A stretch of DNA of 10,687 nucleotides, from assembly GCA_012516015.1 (NCBI GenBank), contig JAAYXG010000276.1, forward strand, positions 1-10,687, written 5' to 3'. The notes beneath the pieces were generated by a model. It saw only the letters and a list, made by a program, of their open reading frames with translations, made no database searches and had not been told where the DNA came from. Numbering within the stretch: the first letter of the stretch is position 1; every line of letters starts with the position of its first letter. A program made the position numbers and the translations under genes. Below are positions 1-10,291 of this stretch, in pieces. The DNA comes from Lysobacteraceae bacterium (lineage in GTDB: Bacteria; Pseudomonadota; Gammaproteobacteria; Steroidobacterales; Steroidobacteraceae).

Positions 1-994
1 CGAGCGACCAGCGTGCGGTCGCACGAATCTTGAGATCGTCGAGCTCGCCGGCCGCGAGGCGGCGATAGCCGGCATACGCGATCATGGCGGCGTTGTCCGT
101 GCAGAACTCCGGGCGCGGATACATCACGCGCACGTTCATGCGGCGGCCGAGCTCGCTGAGCTCGGCGCGCAGCTTGCGGTTCGCGCCGACGCCGCCTGCG
201 ACGACGAGCGTCGAAAGCGACGTTTGCTCGAGCGCGCGCTTGCACTTGGCGACGAGCGTCTCGACGACGGCATCCTGAAACTCGCGAGCAATGTCGGCGC
301 GCGTCGCGTCATCGAGCTCGAGTCCTCGCGTCGCGACGACGACCGCCGTTTTCAGGCCGCTGAAACTGAAGTCGAGCCCGGGCCGATCGAGCATCGGCCG
401 CGGAAAACGAAAGCGGCTCGGTTTCCCGGTATCCGCCAACTTCGCGAGCGCGGGGCCGCCGGGGTACGGCAGCCCGAGCAGCTTTGCGGTCTTGTCGAAC
501 GCTTCGCCGGCCGCGTCATCGACCGACGTGCCGATGATGTCGTATTGCCCGAGCCCGCGAACTTCCGCGAGCAGGGTATGCCCGCCCGAGACGAGCAGCG
601 CGAGAAACGGAAATTCGGGCGCCTCGCTCTCGAGCATCGGCGCGAGCAAATGGCCTTCGAGATGATGTACGCCGACAGCCGGGCGCTGCCAGGCGAAGGC
701 GAGGCTGCGAGCAACCGAGGCGCCGACCAGCAATGCGCCGACGAGACCCGGCCCCGCGGTATAGGCAACCCCAGCGATGTCGCCCGGCGCGCTCTGCGCA
801 TCCGCGAGCGCCGCATCGACGAGCGGCAGCAGCTTCTGCACGTGATCCCGCGAGGCCAGCTCCGGAACCACCCCGCCATACTGCGCATGCAGCGCGACCT
901 GGCTGTACAACCGATGCGACAGCAAGCCGCGCTCGCTGTCGTAGACGGCGGCGGCGGTTTCGTCGCAAGAGGTTTCGATGCCGAGAATTTTCAC
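1..994 (-). CDS. tsaD: tRNA N6-adenosine threonylcarbamoyltransferase TsaD (3' end beyond window)
   Basis: TsaD is the catalytic subunit that, with TsaB and TsaE, transfers threonylcarbamoyl from TC-AMP to A37 of ANN-decoding tRNAs (t6A) in the cytoplasm. The frame read from GTG at 994 opens with [17 protein letters not shown], the signature N-terminus of the Kae1/TsaD/YgjD family. The metal-binding motif [11 protein letters not shown] puts His at residues 111 and 115, the same numbers as E. coli. LVSGGHT, the [12 protein letters not shown] segment, [19 protein letters not shown] and [11 protein letters not shown] follow in family order. 331 codons are visible, ending ARWSL, against about 337 residues in E. 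coli, so only a few residues are missing. GTG was chosen because the family motif begins there. No Shine-Dalgarno precedes it: the upstream sense sequence is C-rich heptad repeat. It is divergent from rpsU, as in E. coli. Confidence 0.96.
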
Positions 995-1000
995 GCTAAG

Positions 1001-1190
1001 GGCTCGGGGCTTGGGGCTTGAATTTGGGGCGAGGGGCGAGGGGCGTGGGGCTTGGGTAGGAAAAAGAAGAAAGTAAGCCTACGTGATGCGGGCTTACACG
1101 ATGGGTTTCAATCTCGAGCCTCGAGCACTCTGGCCCGAGCCCCAGGCCCGAAGCCCCAAGCCCTTTGCACCTCCCAAGCCCCTCGCCTCT
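1001..1190. repeat. Heptad-repeat foldback 1 (tsaD-rpsU divergent region)
   Basis: The left arm (1001-1060) is a run of 7-mers of the form GGGCNNG: GGGCTTG, GGGCGAG and GGGCGTG, some repeated. The right arm (about 1131-1187) carries the complementary family, such as CCCAAGC and CCCTCGC. GGGCTTGGGGCTT (1007-1019) is a perfect 13-nt inverted match to 1151-1163. GGCGTGGGGCTTGGG (1041-1055) matches the complement of 1173-1187 at 14 of 15 positions. The 1007/1163 pair is centred at 1085, exactly the centre of the inner hairpin 1073-1097. The left arm reaches to within a few bases of the tsaD start and the right arm ends just before the candidate rpsU promoter. Function is unknown. Confidence 0.8.
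1060..1097 (-). terminator. Terminator-like hairpin with T-rich tract, facing tsaD
   Basis: Read on the minus strand, GTAAGCC (1097-1091) pairs with GGCTTAC (1079-1073) across an 11-nt loop and is followed by a T-rich run, 10 T in 13 bases (1072-1060). It lies about 66 nt upstream of the tsaD start and in its direction. It could be a weak intrinsic terminator or attenuator, or the palindrome could be a protein-binding operator. The stem is only 7 bp and the T tract is interrupted, so termination efficiency is doubtful. Confidence 0.45.
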
Positions 1191-1219
1191 TTGATTTTCT
1201 TGCCCTGGCTCATTAAACT
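1191..1219 (+). promoter_or_regulatory. Candidate sigma-70 promoter of the rpsU operon
   Basis: TTGATT (1191-1196) and TAAACT (1214-1219) are separated by 17 bp and each match the -35 and -10 consensus at 4 of 6 positions. A start near 1226 would place the terminator-like hairpin 1232-1263 at the very 5' end of the rpsU leader. This is the best promoter-like pair I found between tsaD and rpsU. The -35 box lies just beyond the right heptad arm, which ends at 1187. Confidence 0.45.
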
Positions 1220-1231
1220 TACCGGCTCTTG

Positions 1232-1263
1232 AGCCTGCCCTCATTGGAGAGGCGGGCTTTTTT
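1232..1263 (+). terminator. Intrinsic terminator or attenuator upstream of rpsU
   Basis: AGCCTGCC (1232-1239) pairs with GGCGGGCT (1251-1258), seven Watson-Crick pairs and one G-U. Inner CTC/GAG pairs close an ATTG loop, and six T follow (1258-1263). Its direction is toward rpsU, whose start is 55 nt downstream, and no plus-strand gene precedes it. GGCT-CTTG-AGCC (1224-1235) could form an alternative short hairpin using the first stem bases, as in an attenuator. Termination in this orientation is well supported by shape; its role is inferred. Confidence 0.7.
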
Positions 1264-1279
1264 CACAGGTTATGACTGA

Positions 1280-1295
1280 TCGGCCCACCGGCCGA
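1280..1295 (+). promoter_or_regulatory. Hairpin in the rpsU 5' leader
   Basis: TCGGCC (1280-1285) and GGCCGA (1290-1295) form a perfect 6-bp stem with a CACC tetraloop, 14 nt upstream of the rpsU ribosome-binding site (AGAGG, 1310-1314). It may stabilise the leader or bind a regulator. No known ribosomal-protein leader family is recognised. Confidence 0.4.
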
Positions 1296-1318
1296 GTGTA
1301 GGGAAATTCAGAGGTTCT

Positions 1319-1537
1319 ATGCCGAGCGTTCGCGTCCGAGAAAACGAGTATTTCGATGCCGCCCTGCGGCGCTTCAAGCGCGCCTGCGAGAAAGCTGGCG
1401 TGCTGACCGAGCTCCGGCGGCGCGAATTCTACGAGAAGCCGACGCAAGAACGGAAACGGAAGAAGGCCGCCGCCGTGAAGCGGCACATGAAGCGCCAGTC
1501 GCGCGATGCCAGCGGAATGCGTCGTCGCCCTTACTGA
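1319..1537 (+). CDS. rpsU: 30S ribosomal protein bS21
   Basis: bS21 sits on the 30S platform near the anti-Shine-Dalgarno end of 16S rRNA and helps initiation on natural mRNAs. The 72-residue product matches E. coli S21 (71 aa) along its length: an N-terminal VRENE motif, [35 protein letters not shown] and the basic tail AVKRHMKRQ ending RRRPY. The start is fixed by family alignment and by AGAGG at 1310-1314, four bases before ATG. It is the first gene of the rpsU-yqeY-dnaG-rpoD set. A terminator-like hairpin lies upstream, and a REP plus a GC-rich hairpin follow the stop, which could let S21 be made in excess of primase and sigma, as is known for this operon in E. coli. Confidence 0.98.
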
Positions 1538-1546
1538 CCTGTTCGT

Positions 1547-1568
1547 GTCGGGTTAAAACCCGACCTAC
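1547..1568 (-). repeat. Single GTAG-type REP element
   Basis: Read on the minus strand the 22 nt begin with GTAG, then the palindrome GTCGGGTT, TT loop, AACCCGAC. They are identical over all 22 nt to the left half of the REPIN at 6284-6305. A further GACCTACA fragment follows at 1573-1580, perhaps the remnant of a second REP. GTAG before a short palindrome is the known signature of REP sequences mobilised by RAYT (TnpA-REP) transposases. The stem lies 9 nt after the rpsU stop and could protect its 3' end. Confidence 0.75.
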
Positions 1569-1589
1569 GGCTGACCTACAAGGTAAAAT

Positions 1590-1612
1590 CGCGGCGCCTC
1601 AAGGGCGCCGCG
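1590..1612 (+). other. GC-rich 9-bp hairpin between rpsU and yqeY
   Basis: CGCGGCGCC (1590-1598) and GGCGCCGCG (1604-1612) form a perfect 9-bp stem around TCAAG. There is no T tract, so it is not a canonical intrinsic terminator. It could act as a 3'-end stabiliser or an RNA processing boundary for rpsU mRNA. TAAAAT at 1584-1589 resembles a -10 box but has no convincing -35. Confidence 0.5.
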
Positions 1613-1684
1613 AACGTTTGAGCCCCAGGGAAACCGCTCTCGAATCGGCGCGGATCTCACCCCGGGGCAGCGAGGACCGAATCC

Positions 1685-2137
1685 ATGCCGTCTCTCAAAG
1701 AACGCATTACGGAAGACATGAAGAACGCCATGCGCGCGAAGGACAGCGAGCGCTTGGGCACGATTCGCATGATCACGTCCGCGATCAAGCAGCGGGAAGT
1801 CGACGAGCGCATCACGCTCGATGACACCCAGGTGCTCGCGATCATCGAGAAGATGATCAAGACGCGCAAAGAATCGATCGCGCAATTCCAAACGGGCGGA
1901 CGCGAGGACCTCGTCGCGAAAGAGCAGAAGGAAGTCGAGCTGCTCCAGACCTACCTGCCCGAGCAGCTTTCCGAGGCGGAGCTCGACAAGCTCATCGCGG
2001 ATGCGATCGCGCAGACGGGCGCCACCACCATCAAGGACATGGGCAAGGTCATGGGCCTCGTAAAGCAGCAGGCGCAGGGCCGCGCGGACATGGGCGTGGT
2101 GAGCGGCAAAATCAAAGCCAAGCTCGGCGCCGCTTAG
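1685..2137 (+). CDS. yqeY: GatB/YqeY-domain protein
   Basis: A 150-residue product of the YqeY family, about the usual length. It starts SLKERITEDMKNAMRAKDSERLGTIRM and contains the conserved YLPEQLSEAEL segment, then TIKDMGKVMG and a C-terminal GRADMGVVSGKIKAKL. The helical domain is homologous to the tail domain of GatB, the amidotransferase subunit that makes Gln-tRNA and Asn-tRNA; stand-alone YqeY has no firmly established reaction, though tRNA-related binding is often proposed. The start is supported by GAGGA at 1672-1676, eight bases before ATG. It lies between rpsU and dnaG, an arrangement found in many proteobacteria but not in E. coli. The 264 bp to dnaG are occupied by a foldback. 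Confidence 0.93.
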   Translation: MPSLKERITEDMKNAMRAKDSERLGTIRMITSAIKQREVDERITLDDTQVLAIIEKMIKTRKESIAQFQTGGREDLVAKEQKEVELLQTYLPEQLSEAELDKLIADAIAQTGATTIKDMGKVMGLVKQQAQGRADMGVVSGKIKAKLGAA

Positions 2138-2146
2138 AGGCGCCAC

Positions 2147-2397
2147 GGGCTCTGGGCTCTGGCAAGAGCGTACCTCCGGCACCCACTCCGCCGGTCGCCA
2201 TGACTACCGCTTAGACAGGAACCGCAGCAGTTACAAAGAGCACTCAATGAACGAAAGAGAACACGATCGTTCTCCTAGGTGTTCTATGTTTTCTTTGCGG
2301 CCTCCTGTCCTGATCTTCTCTGGCCTGCAAGCCATCAACTCGCTAAGTTAGTGCCTTCTCTGGCCAGCAGCCCAGAGCCCAGTGCCCAGAGGCCCAG
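2147..2397. repeat. Heptad-repeat foldback 2 (dnaG 5' region)
   Basis: The left arm has two GGGCTCT heptads plus GG (2147-2162), 10 bp after the yqeY stop. The right arm (2364-2397) has CCCAGAG, CCCAGTG and CCCAGAG. GGGCTCTGGG (2147-2156) is a perfect inverted match to 2371-2380, and the full 16-nt arm pairs with 2364-2380 with one extra base. Shorter inverted pairs lie nearly concentrically inside: GACAGGA (2214-2220) with TCCTGTC (2303-2309), CAAAGA (2234-2239) with TCTTTG (2292-2297), and GAGAAC (2257-2262) with GTTCTC (2269-2274). All centres fall between about 2261 and 2266, so most of this 264-bp gap is an imperfect palindrome. It ends at the dnaG start, and the dnaG ribosome-binding site lies in the right arm. 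Confidence 0.75.
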
Positions 2398-2401
2398 CTA
2401 C

Positions 2402-4198
2402 GTGTCCGGCCGCATTCCCCAACACTTCATCGATGAGCTGATCGCTCGCGCGGACATCGTCGAGCTGATCGGCAGCCGCGTGCCGCTGAAGAAGCAGGGG
2501 AAGGAGTTCAAGGCGTGTTGTCCGTTCCACGGCGAGAAGACGCCTTCCTTCACCGTCGTACCGGACAAGCAGTTCTATCACTGCTTCGGCTGCGGCGCGC
2601 ACGGCACGGCGCTCGGCTTTCTGATGGAGCACGATCACCTGAGCTTCCCCGAAGCAGTCGAGGAGCTGGCCTCGCGCCTCGGGCTCGAGGTGCCGCGCGA
2701 AGCGCAACAGCAAGGTCCAAGAGCGTCCGCCACCGACGCGCTGTTCAACGTGCTCAACCAAGCGAGGGAGTTCTACAGTCGCGAGCTCGCGAGCTCGGCA
2801 CGCGCCATCGAGTACTTCAAGAAGCGCGGGCTCACCGGCGAGACCGCGGCGCGCTTCGCGCTCGGCTACGCGCCGGATGCGTGGGATGCCCTGCTCCAAC
2901 ACATGGGCCGCTCGGAAGCGGAGCGGGCCCGTTTGCTGCAAGTGGGACTCATCATCGAACGGGAGCGCAAAGCCGGACAGGACGGGCCGCCCGGCTACTA
3001 CGACCGCTTCCGCGATCGCGTCATGTTTCCGATCCGCGATGCGCGCGGGCGTACGCTCGGGTTCGGCGGCCGCGTGCTCGACAAAGGCGAGCCCAAGTAT
3101 CTGAACTCGCCGGAGACGGAGCTCTTTCACAAGGGCCGCGAGCTCTACGGGTTGTACGAGGCGCGCCAGGCGTCTCGAACCCTCACGCGCATTCTCGTCG
3201 TTGAAGGCTACATGGACGTCGTGCGCCTTCATCAAGCCGGCGTGACGTATGCGGTCGCGACGCTCGGCACGGCCACGACGCCCGAGCATCTCGCGCGCAT
3301 CTTCCGCATTTGCAGCGAGGTCGTGTTCTGCTTCGATGGCGACCGCGCGGGTCGCGCCGCCGCGTGGCGGGCGCTCGAGAACGCATTAAGTCAAGTGCGC
3401 GAAGGCCGGCAGATTCGATTTCTGTTCTTGCCCGAAGGGCACGACCCGGATTCGCTCGTGGGCGAGGAAGGCAAAGACAAGTTCGAAGAGCGGCTCGAGC
3501 GGGCGCTGCCCCTCTCGGAATACTTTCTGAAGCACCTGTCCTCGCAGGTCGATGTGGAGACCGTCGACGGCCGGGCGCGATTCGGGCAGCTCGCGAAGCC
3601 CTATCTCGAGCGCATTCCGCCGGGGCTCTATCGCGAGCTTCTCGCCGACGAGGTCGCGAATGTCGTGCGCATGGACCGCGATCGATTCGCGAAGACGATC
3701 GGCGTCGATGAACTAAAAGCGCGCGAGCCGCTCAAAGAGCGGCCGGCTCAGCATGGAAGGCCGCGGACCGCCGCGACGAGCCGCCGCAATCTCGTGCGCC
3801 AAGCGATCCATTTATTGGTTCATTACCCCGAAATTGCCGACGAAGCCCCTGATGTCGAGGGAATCGCCGGGCTGGACCGCCCGGGCATCCCGCTGCTCTT
3901 GGAGCTCATTCACAGCCTCCAGGAGCGCCCGTGCGCTACGACCGGCGCACTGCTTGAACGATGGCGCGACCGCCCCGATGTAGAGCATCTGTCCAAGCTT
4001 GCAGCATTGGAATGCCTCGTCCCGGACGCCGCGGGGGCCGCAAAGGAGCTAGTCGGCGCGATTAAGCAGCTCGCAGAGGAAGGAGCTTTTGTGCGGCGCG
4101 AGCATTTACTGAGTAAGCACGCTCGAGAAGGCCTGAATGAGGCCGAAAAACTCGAGCTACAAGCCTTGCTGCGCAAGCCGGCCACGGAGTCGCCGTGA
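2402..4198 (+). CDS. dnaG: DNA primase DnaG
   Basis: DnaG makes the RNA primers for replication and is recruited to the fork by DnaB helicase. The 598-residue product (581 in E. coli) has a CHC2 zinc-binding domain with CPFH and CFGC (Cys40, His43, Cys61, Cys64, the same numbers as E. coli). The core contains [18 protein letters not shown] and a TOPRIM site with VVEGYMD (Glu268) and FDGDRAG (Asp312, Asp314), equivalent to E. coli Glu265, Asp309 and Asp311. A divergent helicase-interaction domain follows from about residue 440. GTG at 2402 was chosen because [15 protein letters not shown] aligns with the E. coli N-terminus and AGAGG (2388-2392) lies nine bases upstream. An in-frame GTG at 2279 would add 41 residues read through the repeat, with no family support. 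The gene also holds a sigma-32-like promoter (3953-3981). Confidence 0.97.
3953..3981 (+). promoter_or_regulatory. Candidate sigma-32 heat-shock promoter for rpoD, inside dnaG
   Basis: CTTGAA (3953-3958) is followed after 15 nt by CCCGATGT (3974-3981), a 7-of-8 match to the sigma-32 -10 consensus CCCCATNT; counting from the first C gives a 14-nt spacer. In E. coli a heat-shock promoter for rpoD is likewise within the 3' part of dnaG. This site is in the codons for the LLERW helix, about 365 bp before the rpoD start, near but not identical to the E. coli position. Motif match and location agree; activity is untested. Confidence 0.6.
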
Positions 4199-4343
4199 GC
4201 CGGGCCGCGTCGGGAACCGCGGTGCAGCAATTGCGACTAATATGTGTGCGTTGGCCGACAAACCTGCTGGCGCCCGCATATCGATCCAAGTAAACTGCGC
4301 GGTCTTTTTAAGCCCGCCGCATCGAACCCGTGAGGGCCCAGTC

Positions 4344-6227
<1,884 letters not shown>

Positions 6228-6254
6228 CGTCGTCGTCGAGGATCGAAACGAAAA

Positions 6255-6280
6255 GCCGAGGCACCTGCCTCGGCTTTTTT
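6255..6280 (+). terminator. Intrinsic terminator of the rpoD operon
   Basis: GCCGAGGC (6255-6262) and GCCTCGGC (6267-6274) form a perfect 8-bp stem around ACCT, preceded by AAAA and followed by six T. It starts 28 bp after the rpoD stop. The A and T runs could extend the stem and allow some termination from the minus strand too. Confidence 0.95.
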
Positions 6281-6282
6281 GT

Positions 6283-6335
6283 TGTAGGTCGGGTTTTAAC
6301 CCGACCAAAATTGTCGGAATAAATTCCGACCTACA
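6283..6335. repeat. REPIN: two inverted GTAG-type REPs
   Basis: The left REP (6284-6305) is GTAG plus stem GTCGGGTT, TT loop, AACCCGAC. The right REP (6313-6334), read on the minus strand, is GTAG plus GTCGGAAT, loop, ATTCCGAC. They sit head to head with a 7-nt gap, and the outer TGTAGGTCGG (6283-6292) and CCGACCTACA (6326-6335) are a perfect 10-bp inverted repeat. This is the architecture of REPINs, non-autonomous elements moved by RAYT transposases elsewhere in the genome. The left half is identical to the REP at 1547-1568. Confidence 0.8.
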
Positions 6336-6363
6336 TGGAAGCTCGCGTTGGCCGCCGCGGCTG

Positions 6364-6388
6364 TCGCCGATCGCCATCACATCGGCGA
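6364..6388. other. 8-bp hairpin downstream of the REPIN
   Basis: TCGCCGAT (6364-6371) and ATCGGCGA (6381-6388) form a perfect 8-bp stem with a 9-nt loop and no T tract. It lies between the REPIN and the 25-codon reading frame. No tRNA or known RNA family is recognised between 6336 and 6451. Confidence 0.4.
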
Positions 6389-6451
6389 GGAACCTCAAAC
6401 GAACTGTCCGCATCTAACCTTCAAACGACCTTGGTTATGCGGAGTGGAAGC

Positions 6452-6529
6452 ATGAGCCTTCTCTTCTACCTATTCATGTTCATCATGGCCTGCGCGTTCG
6501 GGTGGTGGGCGAAGGGGAAGAATGTGTAG
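6452..6529 (+). CDS. Possible 25-residue single-span membrane protein
   Basis: The frame encodes MSLLFYLFMFIMACAFG followed by WWAKGKNV: one hydrophobic helix with an aromatic boundary and a short basic tail, suggesting an inner-membrane microprotein with its C-terminus in the cytoplasm. GGAG at 6441-6444 lies seven bases before the ATG, a good ribosome-binding site. An in-frame ATG at 6335 is disfavoured because it adds a low-complexity Arg/Ser-rich stretch beginning in the REPIN. The ACAFG segment recalls the helix of CydX-type oxidase microproteins, but no cyd genes are nearby and the match may be chance. The stop codon TAG is inside the first heptad of foldback 3. Function unknown. Confidence 0.5.
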   Translation: MSLLFYLFMFIMACAFGWWAKGKNV

Positions 6530-6605
6530 GGTGTGAAGTGTGAGGTGTAGGGTCTAGAGGCGCGGTGCCCTTCTGAGATTACGCGCTATACCCTACACGT
6601 CACAC
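6524..6605. repeat. Heptad-repeat foldback 3 between convergent genes
   Basis: The left arm has five 7-mers in register (6524-6558): GTGTAGG, GTGTGAA, GTGTGAG, GTGTAGG, GTCTAGA. The right arm complements it: GTGTGAGGTGTAGGGT (6538-6553) matches the complement of 6590-6605 at 15 of 16 positions. The stem resumes with GCGCG (6560-6564) pairing CGCGC (6582-6586), leaving a loop of about 17 nt. The left arm includes the stop of the 25-codon frame and the right arm covers the ycaQ stop (6600-6602). It could form a hairpin in either transcript and act as a shared 3' end, but has no T tract. Confidence 0.8.
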
Positions 6606-7820
6606 GGCGCCCGAAGCGCGCCTCAACGCGCGCATGAGCTCCCCCCGACGCGACATGAACTGAACACCGTCGAGGCCCAGCCACCCAGCTAACGCCTCGA
6701 GCTGACGCTTCAAGCGCGGCGCGACTTTCGTCGCGCGTTCGCCCTCCTCCACGCTGCCGCCGCGCACTTGCAAGATGCCGCGCGCTCGATCCGCTTTGAG
6801 ATCCACGCGTGCGACGAGGCGATCGCCCATGAGGAACGGCAGCACGTAGTAGCCATGCACGCGCTTGTGGACCGGCGTGTAGATTTCCAATCGATAGTGG
6901 AAGTCGAACAGGCGCTCCGTGCGCTGACGCTCCCACACCAATGAGTCGAACGGCGAGAGCAGCGCGTTGACATCGACGCTCCGAGGGCAACTTGCCTCGC
7001 GGTGCAAATACGCCTGCTCTTTCCAACCTTCAACGGCGACCGGCGTCACGACACCGGCTTCGACGAGCTCGGGTAGGCGTGCCGCGGCATCCGCCGCGGG
7101 CAGTCTGAAGTAGTCGCGCAGATCGCGCGCTGTTGCGATGCCGAGTGCACGCGCTGCGATCGCCATGAGCTCGCGCTGCGCCTCCTCCTTGGTCGGCGTC
7201 GGCGCGGCGACGATCTCGGCCGGCAAGACACGCTCGCTCAAATCGTAAAGACGCTCGAAATTGCGGCGCGCCGCGGTCGTGACGACGCCGGTCCAGAATA
7301 GCCATTCCAAGATCTCCTTTCCCTCGCTCCAGCCCCACCAGCTTCCTTTCGAGCGGCCGCCGTTCACGAGATCGCCGGCACCCAAGGCACCGCGCTCGCG
7401 CACTTGCGCGAGCACGGACTCGACGGCGCTCGTATGCTCCGACGCGAAACGCTTGAGTCTTCCCCACACGCCTTCGCCTCGCTTCGCTTGCTCCATTCGC
7501 CAGCGAAACAGCGGCTGACACTCGATCGGCAACAGCGAGGCTTCATGCCCCCAGTACTCGAACAACCTGCGCTGCCGCGGATCGTACGCGGCGCGCTCGA
7601 GGAGACTGCGCGCATACTCGCCGCGGCGTGAGAACGCGGGCAGATAGTGCGAGCGCACGAGCACGTTGACGGAATCGATCTGCACGGCGCCGAGCATGAG
7701 TACGAGCCGGGCGTAGGCGCTTGCGTTGCGCAAGGCGCAGCCCGCGGGCGCGAACCCTTGTGCGGCCAGCGCGATGCGCCGAGCCTCCGCCAAGGAAACG
7801 GAAGCCCGCGCGCGCCTCAT
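6600..7820 (-). CDS. ycaQ: YcaQ/AlkX-family DNA glycosylase
   Basis: The 406-residue product (410 in E. coli YcaQ) belongs to the winged-helix AlkZ/AlkX family. E. coli YcaQ (AlkX) is a DNA glycosylase that unhooks interstrand crosslinks made by nitrogen-mustard agents. VQIDSVNV near the N-terminus holds the QxD catalytic motif of the YcaQ branch (Gln47, Asp49); AlkZ has QxQ. Other conserved blocks are RSHYLPAFSRRGEY, EYWGHEASLLPIE, RRNFERLYDLSERVLP, LSPFDSLVWERQRTERLFDF, YRLEIYTP and HGYYVLPFL. The start ATG (7820-7818) shares ATGA with the stop of the upstream transporter gene, and no Shine-Dalgarno is visible, so translation probably depends on coupling. Longer in-frame extensions only read through the transporter gene in another frame. 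Confidence 0.92.
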   Translation of the reverse strand: MRRARASVSLAEARRIALAAQGFAPAGCALRNASAYARLVLMLGAVQIDSVNVLVRSHYLPAFSRRGEYARSLLERAAYDPRQRRLFEYWGHEASLLPIECQPLFRWRMEQAKRGEGVWGRLKRFASEHTSAVESVLAQVRERGALGAGDLVNGGRSKGSWWGWSEGKEILEWLFWTGVVTTAARRNFERLYDLSERVLPAEIVAAPTPTKEEAQRELMAIAARALGIATARDLRDYFRLPAADAAARLPELVEAGVVTPVAVEGWKEQAYLHREASCPRSVDVNALLSPFDSLVWERQRTERLFDFHYRLEIYTPVHKRVHGYYVLPFLMGDRLVARVDLKADRARGILQVRGGSVEEGERATKVAPRLKRQLEALAGWLGLDGVQFMSRRGELMRALRRASGAV

Positions 7821-9643
7821 TGCAGCGGGAAGAAGCGCGGCAGCGTGTACGAGAACGCGAGCCACATGATGATCACGAGCGGTAGCCCGACGCGGACGAA
7901 ATCTTTGAAGGTGTAGCCGCCCGCGCTGAAGACGAGCAGATTGCAATTGTCGGCCATCGGCGTGGCATAGCCGAGATTCACGCCGAAGAGCACGGCGAGT
8001 ACGAACGGCTCGGGCGGCAAGCCGAGCTGTCGCGCGACTTCGATTGCGATCGGCGTGCCGATGACGGCGGCGGCGCCGTTGGAGATGACGCCGCTCAGGA
8101 TCGCCATCAACAAGATCGTCGCGCTCAGAACCGCGACCGGCGGCAGACTCGTGCTCGCCATCACGAGCAATCCCGCAATGAAAGAGGCGCCCCCGGTCGT
8201 CACGAGCGCCATACTGAGCGCGAGGCTCGCGACGGTGAGCATGATGAGAGAGGAATCGAGCGCGCGCGTGGCGTGACGCCACTTGAGACATCCCGTCACG
8301 ACCATCAACAGCACGCCGAAGATCGCAGCGATGGAGATCGGCGCAATGCGCAACGCCGCAACGAGAATGATGCCGCCCATGATCGCGAGCGCGAGCGGCG
8401 CTTTCTTCGCGAGCGGCACGTTCGTCGTGGCATCGAGCACCAGCACTTCGCTGCGCCGCTTGAGCGCTTGGATCTGCTCTTCCGGTCCCTGCACGAGCAG
8501 CACGTCGCCGACGCCGAGCGGCACGTCGCGAAGCGTCGTCGCACTGGCGAGCGCGTCGGATTCTCCGGGCCTGTGAATCGCGAGCGGGATGAGCTGGTAC
8601 TGCCAATCGAAATTCGCCTGTGCGAGCGTTCGGTCGCGCAGCGGCGAGGTGGGCGTCAACACGAGCTCGGCGGTCTGCTGATCCTGAGCCGTGAGCGGAT
8701 GCTCCTCGTCGACAGGCGTATCGCCCGAGTAGAGCTTCGCGCCGAGAATGCGTGCGTACTCCATCAGGCGCTCGGACGTATCGCGCACGACGAGCTGATC
8801 GCCGGCGCGCAGCACGAGATCGGGCAGCGGCGAGATCTTCATCGCCGGCTGACGGATCACCGCCTGCACGACCATATCGCCGTTCGTCATCTTCTTAGCA
8901 TCCGCAAGCTTCTTGCCGTTGACGCTGCTTTGTTCCTTCAAATGCAACTGCGCTTCGAAAATGCGCAGCGACGTGCCGTGAAACGGCGCCGGGCGATCGG
9001 GCAGCAGGCGCGGCGCGATGAGCCATAGATAAAGGAGCCCCGGAATCGCCGCAAGCGCCGCCGGAGCGAGGAACTCGAAGATGTGAAATCCCTCGATACC
9101 GAAGCGCGCCGCGCTGCCGATGACGAGCAGGTTGAGCGACGTGCCGATCGGCGTGCCCATGCCGCCGATCTGCGAAGCGAACGTCATCGGCATCAACACC
9201 TTCGACGGCGACATGTTCGAGCGAATCGCGGCCGCGGTGAGAATCGGGATCATCAACACGACGAGCGGCGTGTTGTTCATGACGGCGCTCATGCACGGGA
9301 CGATCGTGAGCACGACGCCGAGCGCAAGCAGCGGACTCGCCGTCCAGATGCGGCTGACGAAGCGCCCGACGGGCGCGAGCGCACCGGTGACGACGAGCCC
9401 CTGGCTCGCCATCATGAGCGAGCAGATCGTGATCAGCGCTTCGTTCCCGAAGCCGCTGAAGAAATCGAACGGCTCGATCTCTCCTTCCGGCGTGCTGTAG
9501 GGAAAGATGCTGAACCCGATTGCAAGCAAAGCGACGACGAGCAGGCTCGAGGTCTCGATGGCGATCGACTCTCGCGAGAACAGGTACAACGCGAAGAGCG
9601 TCAATACCATCACCGCGATGGCGTGTGGGTCGAGTAAGGTCAT
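7817..9643 (-). CDS. SLC13/DASS-family anion permease with two RCK_C (TrkA-C) domains
   Basis: A 608-residue inner-membrane protein of the divalent anion:Na+ symporter superfamily in the YfbS-like form: a membrane half (about 1-212), two soluble RCK_C-type domains (about 225-310 and 320-400, with LRAGDQLVVRDTSERL and LGVGDVLLVQGPEEQI), and a second membrane half (about 415-606). Family signatures are MNNTPLVVLMIP (residues 122-133), GTPIGTSLNLLV (163-174), ISNGAAAVIGTP (520-531) and GYATPMADNCNLLVF (558-572). The SNT ion-site motifs of the family read NNT and SNG here. Relatives move sulfate, dicarboxylates or other anions; the substrate cannot be read from sequence. The start ATG has only a weak GAAGA upstream. 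It overlaps ycaQ by four bases, giving a two-gene unit. Confidence 0.88.
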   Translation of the reverse strand: MTLLDPHAIAVMVLTLFALYLFSRESIAIETSSLLVVALLAIGFSIFPYSTPEGEIEPFDFFSGFGNEALITICSLMMASQGLVVTGALAPVGRFVSRIWTASPLLALGVVLTIVPCMSAVMNNTPLVVLMIPILTAAAIRSNMSPSKVLMPMTFASQIGGMGTPIGTSLNLLVIGSAARFGIEGFHIFEFLAPAALAAIPGLLYLWLIAPRLLPDRPAPFHGTSLRIFEAQLHLKEQSSVNGKKLADAKKMTNGDMVVQAVIRQPAMKISPLPDLVLRAGDQLVVRDTSERLMEYARILGAKLYSGDTPVDEEHPLTAQDQQTAELVLTPTSPLRDRTLAQANFDWQYQLIPLAIHRPGESDALASATTLRDVPLGVGDVLLVQGPEEQIQALKRRSEVLVLDATTNVPLAKKAPLALAIMGGIILVAALRIAPISIAAIFGVLLMVVTGCLKWRHATRALDSSLIMLTVASLALSMALVTTGGASFIAGLLVMASTSLPPVAVLSATILLMAILSGVISNGAAAVIGTPIAIEVARQLGLPPEPFVLAVLFGVNLGYATPMADNCNLLVFSAGGYTFKDFVRVGLPLVIIMWLAFSYTLPRFFPLQ

Positions 9644-10029
9644 TGTTCTTCGAATGGCACGCTGCGGCTGAACGACCCGCCGGCGACCCAGGTTCCGCGC
9701 CAGGATCCGGTCGGTCGAGCTCCGGGCGCGCGCGGCGCCTCACAAACAGTGATCAATTGACGTTGCTGGAAAACCCTCGCGCGCAGGACGGGACATCGCT
9801 TGCGCAGCGGCAATTAAAGTCAAACCCCTCAGCCGCAAGCGCTGCGATCGTGTGCTCTAGCGCACTGTTTTCCGCACCTCCTCCTCGCTCGCTCGTATGC
9901 AGCGGCGGCTTGCGCTCGGGCATCGACCTCAGGGGCTTATCCTCGCGCGGATGAATGACGCGCCTCCGAGCGCATCTCAAAATCGAGCCCACTTACCGAC
10001 GAATGTCCCTGTGCGGGAGGACTCACCCG
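9644..10029. other. 386-bp divergent intergenic region, no gene recognised
   Basis: This lies between the permease start (minus) and the small plus-strand gene, so it should hold both promoters. I see no convincing -35/-10 pair for either. CGCTTGCG (9797-9804) and CGCAAGCG (9834-9841) form an 8-bp stem with a 29-nt loop, with ATCGC/GCGAT outside it (9795-9799, 9844-9848). A GTG-started minus-strand frame (9753-9992, 79 codons) has no clear ribosome-binding site or recognisable protein. No tRNA is seen. Confidence 0.6.
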
Positions 10030-10281
10030 ATGCGCTCGACCGACAACTTTGCCTTCGAGTTCTCGCTCGATCTCACGACTCAGGAGCTTCTAACCATGCC
10101 GCCCGCAGCGACAACGATCGAGATCGAGGACATCGGGGACGTCGAACCCCTCTACCGCGGGGCGGCTCCAGCCGCGAACGCGGAACGCGCAAGGATAGAG
10201 GACTCGGCGGGCGCTGTGGAGATTGAATTGACCGCCGAACAGGTGCTAGCGCTGCTGACCGATGGGGTTAGTGACGTGTGA
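10030..10281 (+). CDS. Small acidic protein of unknown function (83 aa)
   Basis: I do not recognise this product. It is acidic, rich in Glu, Asp, Ala and Leu, has no signal peptide or membrane segment, and contains TIEIEDIGDVEPLY, then VEIELTAEQVLALLTDG near the C-terminus. GGGAGG (10015-10020) nine bases before the first ATG is a strong ribosome-binding site. A second in-frame ATG at 10096 is also preceded nine bases upstream by AGGAG (10082-10086), so a 61-residue form is equally plausible. The two good sites in one frame argue that the frame is translated. Its stop codon lies in a heptad array, and the gene is convergent with the DUF4136-type gene. Confidence 0.6.
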   Translation: MRSTDNFAFEFSLDLTTQELLTMPPAATTIEIEDIGDVEPLYRGAAPAANAERARIEDSAGAVEIELTAEQVLALLTDGVSDV

Positions 10282-10291
10282 CGCGTGACGA
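10271..10291. repeat. Heptad array 4 at the stop of the small acidic gene
   Basis: Three consecutive 7-mers GTGACGT, GTGACGC, GTGACGA vary only in the last base and span the stop codon TGA (10279-10281). The 9-mer GTGACGTGT also occurs in the complement of the right arm of foldback 3. No clear complementary arm is visible before 10378, unlike the other three sites. Confidence 0.7.

Follow-up and report, generated by a model that had tools for sequence, protein, structure and literature searches.

What keeps a mirrored arrangement of seven-base tandem repeats in place at gene boundaries when the repeated heptad differs from one boundary to the next? The question is raised by a 10,687-nucleotide (nt) stretch of DNA from a Lysobacteraceae bacterium, analysed here over its full length (the window), in which an earlier note had described heptad arrays at four gene boundaries, three of them built as inverted foldbacks. 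In this genome (G000) and in several relatives, heptads are common to both arms of a site, the G-rich strand of each arm is directed into the gap, a pentamer, YMAGA (CCAGA, TCAGA, CAAGA or TAAGA), often lies directly 3' of the G-rich array across unrelated heptad families, and different species use different heptad vocabularies. These features point to a process that retains the layout while rewriting the letters. That the mirrored heptads originate from DNA-level slippage combined with arm-to-arm and site-to-site copying appears to us about as probable as all other explanations taken together.

Mirrored arrays, their frequency and their polarity

Three sites of the window carry heptad arrays with inverted foldbacks as claimed, judged by Tandem Repeats Finder, a lag-7 scan that presumes no sequence, and folds compared with shuffles. 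Site 1 lies between divergent genes. Its left arm (995..1056), G-rich on the plus strand, consists of GGGCTTG and GGGCGAG heptads recovered by Tandem Repeats Finder (1000-1056) and the lag-7 scan, and the same heptad family forms the right arm on the minus strand (1134..1189; Tandem Repeats Finder 1134-1163, scan 1134-1168, remainder by eye). The inner end of the right arm bears the motif as CCAGA on the minus strand (1129..1133; TCTGG on the plus strand); the left arm has TAGGA where the motif would sit. Site 2 occupies the yqeY-dnaG gap, with 2.3 copies of GGGCTCT on the plus strand (2147..2162, Tandem Repeats Finder) followed by CAAGA (2163..2167, plus strand), and a right arm of GGGCTCT type on the minus strand (2364..2397, Tandem Repeats Finder and lag-7 scan) that has CCAGA at its inner end (2359..2363, minus strand; again TCTGG on the plus strand) and stops 4 bp ahead of the dnaG GTG. 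At site 3, GTGTAGG and GTGTGAA heptads make up the plus-strand left arm (6524..6557, lag-7 scan), and the same family recurs on the minus strand in the right arm (6587..6605).

Predicted single-strand DNA folds of sites 1, 2 and 3 were better than those of 200 out of 200 dinucleotide shuffles (z -3.8, -3.8 and -5.1), and for the left array the best inverted 12-nt partner matched at 12, 12 and 11 of 12 positions within the inner 300 bp, compared with 9, 8 and 8 on the outer side. Site 4 (10271..10291, plus strand) holds 2.9 copies of GTGACGN, which Tandem Repeats Finder reports with period 7 at 10271-10290. Its fold is at the level of shuffles (z 0.00) and its partner is not significant (10/12 inner vs 9/12 outer). 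It is thus weak as a member of the mirrored set, and the earlier note had rightly left it out.

The window is one contig of a 3.6-Mb assembly in 844 contigs that is 76% complete. In 40 evenly spaced contigs of this assembly, the lag-7 scan found 17 period-7 arrays within 147,554 unmasked bases (a further 33,700 bases were masked), which extrapolates to about 400 arrays in the genome. Control lags gave far less: 0-5 arrays at each of the other lags from 5 to 13, five at lag 15 and three at lag 16, with nine at the harmonic lag 14. Four G-triplets with four-base spacing (G3N4 arrays) were counted at 160 places on the forward strand and 176 on the reverse, overlapping matches being counted separately. 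The unit is exactly 7 bp, the arrays are intergenic, and the unit consensus differs from the GGGNATC of Xanthomonas. The window and 60 further contigs (20 picked for G3N4 matches, 40 evenly spaced) yielded at least eight heptad families scattered over the genome, among them GGGGCTT, GGGCTCT, GTGTAAG, GGTTGAC, GCGGTTA, GGGGATA, GGCTGTA, GTGACTC and GCGGACA, with GGG-type families the commonest. Since the array detector requires about 28 bp, it imposes a floor at four units, and no preference for four units is claimed.

Such arrays are distributed patchily. Within the genus, G3N4 places number 468 in G012, 336 in G000 and 139 in G004, followed by 60 in G013, 50 in G007 and 26 in G002, and 0-5 in the others. 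Triple heptads of GTTGAC type were found in three of 296 genomes of the order, all belonging to this genus, which contributed seven genomes to that sample (91 places vs 3 for the reversed control in G000, 104 vs 2 in G012 and 11 vs 0 in G007). Among gammaproteobacterial dnaG loci, 76 of 80 had none or one lag-7 array at a stricter threshold. Seven is not the dominant period in the Xanthomonas and Luteibacter samples (23 arrays vs 24 at lag 6 in Xanthomonas AmX2; 13 vs 19 in X. prunicola; 3 vs 11 in Luteibacter), where the signals at lags 6, 9 and 12 may stem from codons. In Luteibacter, GGGAAGT places are paired plus then minus in pattern listings, and the lag-7 detector gave three arrays in 140 kb and no pairs.

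The inverted partner lies almost exclusively on one side. Reverse complements were sought within 250 bp on either side of each array (at least 12 of 14 matches), leaving out arrays with a G-C difference below 3 or lying 250 bp or less from a sequence end, so that 85 of the 92 own-genome arrays with a difference of at least 3 were kept. The partner was found 3' of the G-rich strand for 63/85 arrays and 5' for 1/85, and the corresponding counts were 50/59 and none in the congener G012, 18/21 and none in the congener G004, and 32/50 and none at Xanthomonas loci. Inverted partners thus strongly favour one flank over the other. Adjacent arrays were plus-minus in 31 of 34 cases in the own sample (two minus-plus, one plus-plus), rising to 27/27 under a stricter strand criterion; G012 gave 14 plus-minus and two plus-plus. 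The layout shared by unrelated heptads thus stands, and the families do differ, but in one respect the heptads are not unrelated, as their G-rich strand is directed into the gap. Separately, a marine gammaproteobacterial metagenome-assembled genome contains a plus-minus pair of the A-rich heptad ATACAAG (L065:6966-7079), so the layout is not restricted to G-rich units.

One hypothesis, put forward around the Xanthomonas heptads, is that G-quadruplex (G4) formation drives or selects the repeats, and the prevalence of GGG-type families is in line with it. Over 62 pairs from the own genome, G012 and G004, however, both arms carried a G4 motif in 19, one arm in 12 and neither arm in 31, with identical polarity in the motif-free half. 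On this ground G-quadruplexes are rejected as a general cause, and we regard this account as having hardly any chance of being correct.

A second explanation, suggested in the earlier note, is selection for an RNA hairpin serving processing, stability or termination, in which the arms would stay complementary while their sequence drifts freely as long as it pairs. The strong folds predicted for sites 1-3 (with DNA parameters) agree with this, as does the location of 27 of 51 pairs between co-directional genes. Yet gaps between divergent genes, in which no ordinary transcript covers both arms, were not short of pairs: 12 divergent, 27 co-directional and 12 convergent pairs stand against a background of 85, 183 and 61 (12/51 vs 85/329). 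Nor was there a significant excess of G-U among the sense-strand arm mismatches (39 G-U vs 30 A-C, 52 others); both tests used our own simple gene calls, with 11 pairs set aside. Terminator-like sites numbered seven in the window and 8.4 in shuffles, with none in the arms, in a scan limited to loops of 3-8 nt, and species-wide heptad change (see below) is left unexplained. No Rfam family matched anywhere in the window at E <= 0.1. Given the lack of divergent-gene depletion and of a significant G-U excess, the RNA-hairpin function is weakened, and we hold it to be unlikely.

The boundaries named in the earlier note are indeed gene edges. tsaD (2..994, minus strand, PF00814) starts at 994; yqeY (1685..2137, plus strand, PF09424) stops at 2137; dnaG (2402..4198, plus strand, PF01807/PF08275) begins with the GTG at 2402; and site 3 is flanked by a 25-aa open reading frame without a Pfam match, whose TAG stop (6527-6529) lies in the left arm, and by a convergent gene for an AlkZ-like DNA glycosylase (6600..7820, minus strand, PF06224), whose TGA stop (6600-6602) lies in the right arm, so that both stops fall inside heptads. 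Of 108 arm edges, 82 lay within 30 bp of a gene, compared with 72.8 expected when elements were slid inside their gaps (maximum 80 in 2000 trials); anchoring to gene edges is therefore real but comes mostly from elements filling the gap, and our simple gene caller may itself put starts beside arrays. The window further encodes rpsU (1319..1537, plus strand, PF01165), rpoD (4344..6227, plus strand, Pfam Sigma70 domains), a CitMHS-type transporter and a DUF4136 protein.

Most non-GGG heptads (GTGTAGG, GGTTGAC, GTGACTC), like those of site 3 (6524-6605), hold a stop codon once repeated. With a period of 7 and a stop in the heptad, an array closes all three frames, an effect that has likewise been pointed out for TAACTGA repeats (PMC4679880).

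Matching arms and the inner motif

Heptads are shared within a site more than between sites. With pairs permuted, no permutation in 5000 was as good as the observed within-site sharing in G000 (29 pairs) or G012 (23 pairs), and only 6/5000 were in G004 (8 pairs) and 1/5000 in AmX2 (9 pairs). The match persisted within the own-genome GGG family alone (19 pairs, 2/5000), and units of the same rank in both arms agreed at 5.74 of 7 positions, compared with 5.53 at other ranks (p 0.013, from comparisons that are not independent). One locus (L113:2612-2805) has three copies of TTCTGGCC plus heptads on its right side, with GGTCTTGTCTGC after the first two copies; this could possibly be a snapshot of arm amplification.

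The motif YMAGA marks the inner end of the arrays. It occurs there (positions -6 to +16) in 56/99 own-genome arrays, 37 of them exactly at the end, where array-free intergenic DNA leads one to expect 3.0, and at the outer end in 4/99. Across whole genomes, two G3N4 units followed by GGG and YMAGA were counted 65 times in G000 (2 for the reversed pattern), 21 times in G004 (2) and 20 times in G012 (0); of the 60 genomes covered, G000 included, the remaining 57 had three occurrences or fewer each. The own-genome array test and these controlled whole-genome counts are the independent tests of the motif; YMAGA counts from the G012 and G004 stretches, and from two of the three G013 stretches, lack this independence, since YMAGA was part of the matches by which these stretches were picked. 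A similar motif, G[CT]A[AC][GC]AG (GYAASAG), defined after inspection of the data, lies at 8/29 inner and 0/29 outer ends (0.4 expected) in X. prunicola and X. vasicola, with YMAGA itself at 6/29 inner and 2/29 outer ends. Both signals are weak in AmX2 (2/34 each).

A recurring inner motif would also be expected if the sites were copies of a small mobile foldback element, of the miniature inverted-repeat transposable element (MITE) or repetitive extragenic palindromic (REP) type, inserting into intergenic gaps with YMAGA as its inner end. The dispersal of heptad families over the genome fits this account, as does the confinement of the GGTTGAC family to three of 296 genomes, all of this genus. 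Against it, interiors in the own sample share at most 13 bp pairwise at E <= 0.01, and beyond the heptads only the pentamer recurs; RAYT, for which G000 with its 76% completeness, G004 and G013 gave no match despite bearing arrays, had two matches in the nearly array-free G009; and one Xanthomonas site has changed arms around an alignable interior. As the interiors are unrelated, a classical mobile element is weakened, and we think this origin quite improbable.

Turnover between species and a proposed process

The comparison within the genus covered 14 genomes (G000-G013), with dnaG found in 12. The yqeY-dnaG gap, which in G000 holds GGGCTCT arms, has by eye GTGAGTG-type arms with CCAGA and TCTTG in G004 and a right arm only (AACCGCT, after TCTTG) in G007. 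It lacks clean arrays in G002, G005, G009 and G013, and is array-free and 49-51 bp long in G001, G003, G008, G010 and G011; in a check for a target duplication or an empty site, these five gaps were too diverged in sequence to show a junction.

Closer relatives were compared at the dnaG locus of X. prunicola and X. vasicola, where, among 19 called genes, identity is 91-100% for 15 and 87-88% for two, the last two aligning poorly. By eye, one orthologous site has a conserved interior flanked by arms that both differ between the species (GGGATT-type against GGGAAT-type) and are both longer in heptads in X. vasicola; a second array site looks unalignable from gene edge to gene edge. X. vasicola also carries dispersed repeats of about 60-125 bp in many copies with roughly 73-83% identity (L253:3684-3754, L256:17206-17331), which are distinct from the heptads.

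In 18-base matches at four sites in three species (X. vasicola, X. prunicola and AmX2), a small sample, arms within one site agreed at 16.2/18 bases, orthologous arms between species at 14.3/18 (14.9 between X. vasicola and X. prunicola, 14.0 for comparisons with AmX2), and arms of different sites in different species at 14.2/18. Orthologous arms thus hold little or no extra similarity. Arms of different sites are alike in two of the three species, which in this small sample is species-wide concerted change. Together with the flank asymmetry, the matching of arms and the yqeY-dnaG gap, most tests accordingly support the contention of the earlier note that architecture is kept rather than sequence.

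A species-wide vocabulary and a shared heptad at each site would also be seen if the arrays bound DNA- or RNA-reading proteins whose specificity varies by species, the arms matching since the same protein binds both. At least eight families per genome would, however, demand equally many specificities, and we find such binding arrays very unlikely.

The process we favour would make and rewrite intergenic foldbacks at the DNA level. From gene edge to gene edge, a site typically comprises G-rich heptads, YMAGA, an interior spanning roughly 20-230 bp and then TCTKR, the complement of the pentamer, and C-rich heptads. Heptads would be gained and lost by slippage, and template switching across the foldback would use one arm time and again as the template for rewriting the other, as happens when quasipalindromes are corrected. 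Arms may also acquire sequence from other sites in the genome, giving rise to a vocabulary particular to each species, and YMAGA is a candidate start or stop point of copying; an origin of YMAGA in primase action or in replication strands would be speculation. The matching arms, the polarity, the inner motif and the vocabularies that differ by species are observed, and slippage and both kinds of copying are what we infer from them. Change in both arms together agrees with template switching inside a foldback, and template switching has been described to create and keep stems and offered to explain why G-C and U-A are asymmetric between the strands of RNA stems (PMC8794818). Among the three causes that the earlier note had suggested, DNA-level template switching is thus favoured and the RNA hairpin and classical mobile element are weakened, although the choice is not settled.

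Several observations weigh against this DNA-level process. Slippage and switching leave the motif, the constant polarity and the vocabulary unexplained: they give no reason to expect one inner motif to recur in unrelated heptad families, and convergence of the G-rich strands is beyond ordinary mutation by itself. Part of the process is therefore missing, and our confidence is held at an even level. Whole-arm copying predicts correlated arm lengths, and these were uncorrelated (54 pairs, rho 0.04), with a range narrowed by the detection floor. Arm matching was absent from the four GGG pairs of G004 taken alone (4387/5000 permutations) and showed no clear excess in X. prunicola and X. vasicola (three pairs each; 1660/5000 and 2490/5000). 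Unlike the heptads, YMAGA variants are unmatched between arms, being identical in 6/15 own-genome pairs against an expected fraction of 0.34; 14 further pairs without YMAGA on one or both arms lay outside this comparison. Different sites of one species agreed at 15.8 (X. vasicola), 14.3 (X. prunicola) and 17.4 (AmX2) of 18 bases, compared with 16.2 within sites, so that species vocabulary explains most of the within-site match at the four Xanthomonas sites. Site-to-site copying left no direct trace in the sequences compared. Several array-free gaps of the Xanthomonas dnaG locus have strongly diverged too (60-76% with gaps, others being 86-96% identical), so they offer no clean neutral baseline and array gaps are not alone in turning over fast. 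Finally, one point in favour of the process is at most permissive: the palindrome nuclease SbcD (TIGR00619) had no match in 13 of the 14 genus genomes and only a partial one in G009, but array-free relatives lack it as well.

The motif, the matched arms and the vocabulary could alternatively reflect a dedicated heptad-writing system, telomerase-like in effect, in which an enzyme with an exchangeable template adds heptads in gaps. YMAGA, or the GYAASAG-like motif of two Xanthomonas species, would tell it where to start or stop, both arms would be written from the same template, and a change of template would rewrite the vocabulary of a species. We deem such a system distinctly improbable.

Other gene families were searched as candidates in the genus and rejected. 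Reverse transcriptase (PF00078) matched in 10/14 genomes and is absent from the array-bearing G013 and G007; RAYT, to which the transposase search was confined, matched in 6/14, unrelated to arrays; and Ku matched in 13/14, array-free genomes included. The three reverse-transcriptase (RVT_1) matches of G000 lie on contigs C63, C186 and C214.

Comparison with known repeat systems

The cause of the excess of seven-base units among the longer repeats of bacteria has been left as an open question (PMC4692102, PMC4679880). The arrays described here make it testable, since the arms act as mutual internal controls, polarity is near absolute, half of the pairs are G4-free and the motif marks one end. 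A mutational process would rapidly supply palindromes at the borders of housekeeping genes, dnaG among them; an enzymatic one would amount to DNA writing of a new kind.

Foldback (FB) transposons of Drosophila are mobile and share sequence, and their inverted repeats are built from short tandem subrepeats; the interiors of the sites reported here, in contrast, are unrelated. In the open literature on heptad repeats, with subscription papers mostly outside coverage, we found no description of the inner motif, of matching between arms or of several matched families. The TAACTGA repeats of Beggiatoaceae, cyanobacteria and Bacteroidetes resemble our arrays in being intergenic heptads near gene starts, but are described as direct repeats of one heptad, mostly upstream of start codons, with a single inverted case in the genome studied (PMC4679880). 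Template-switch mutation at quasipalindromes is similar to our proposal in that arms are recopied mutually, with complementary changes and possibly strand asymmetry, but it concerns single stems, and tandem heptads or a fixed starting motif do not form part of the description consulted (PMC8794818).

The closest likeness is to the GGGNATC heptads of Xanthomonas (Rehm et al. 2015, PMC4692102), which are G-rich, mostly intergenic, near the ends of open reading frames and variable between species, and which, in two genomes, form 70 and 75 inverted pairs that lie close together and converge, with a functional role yet to be elucidated. Convergent pairing itself is therefore already known. That study, in the parts consulted, ties the repeats to G-quadruplexes and makes no mention of an inner motif, arm matching or a species-wide switch for them, and half of the pairs analysed here have no G4 motif. 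It describes one heptad type per genome, whereas here a single genome holds at least eight, each with matched arms.

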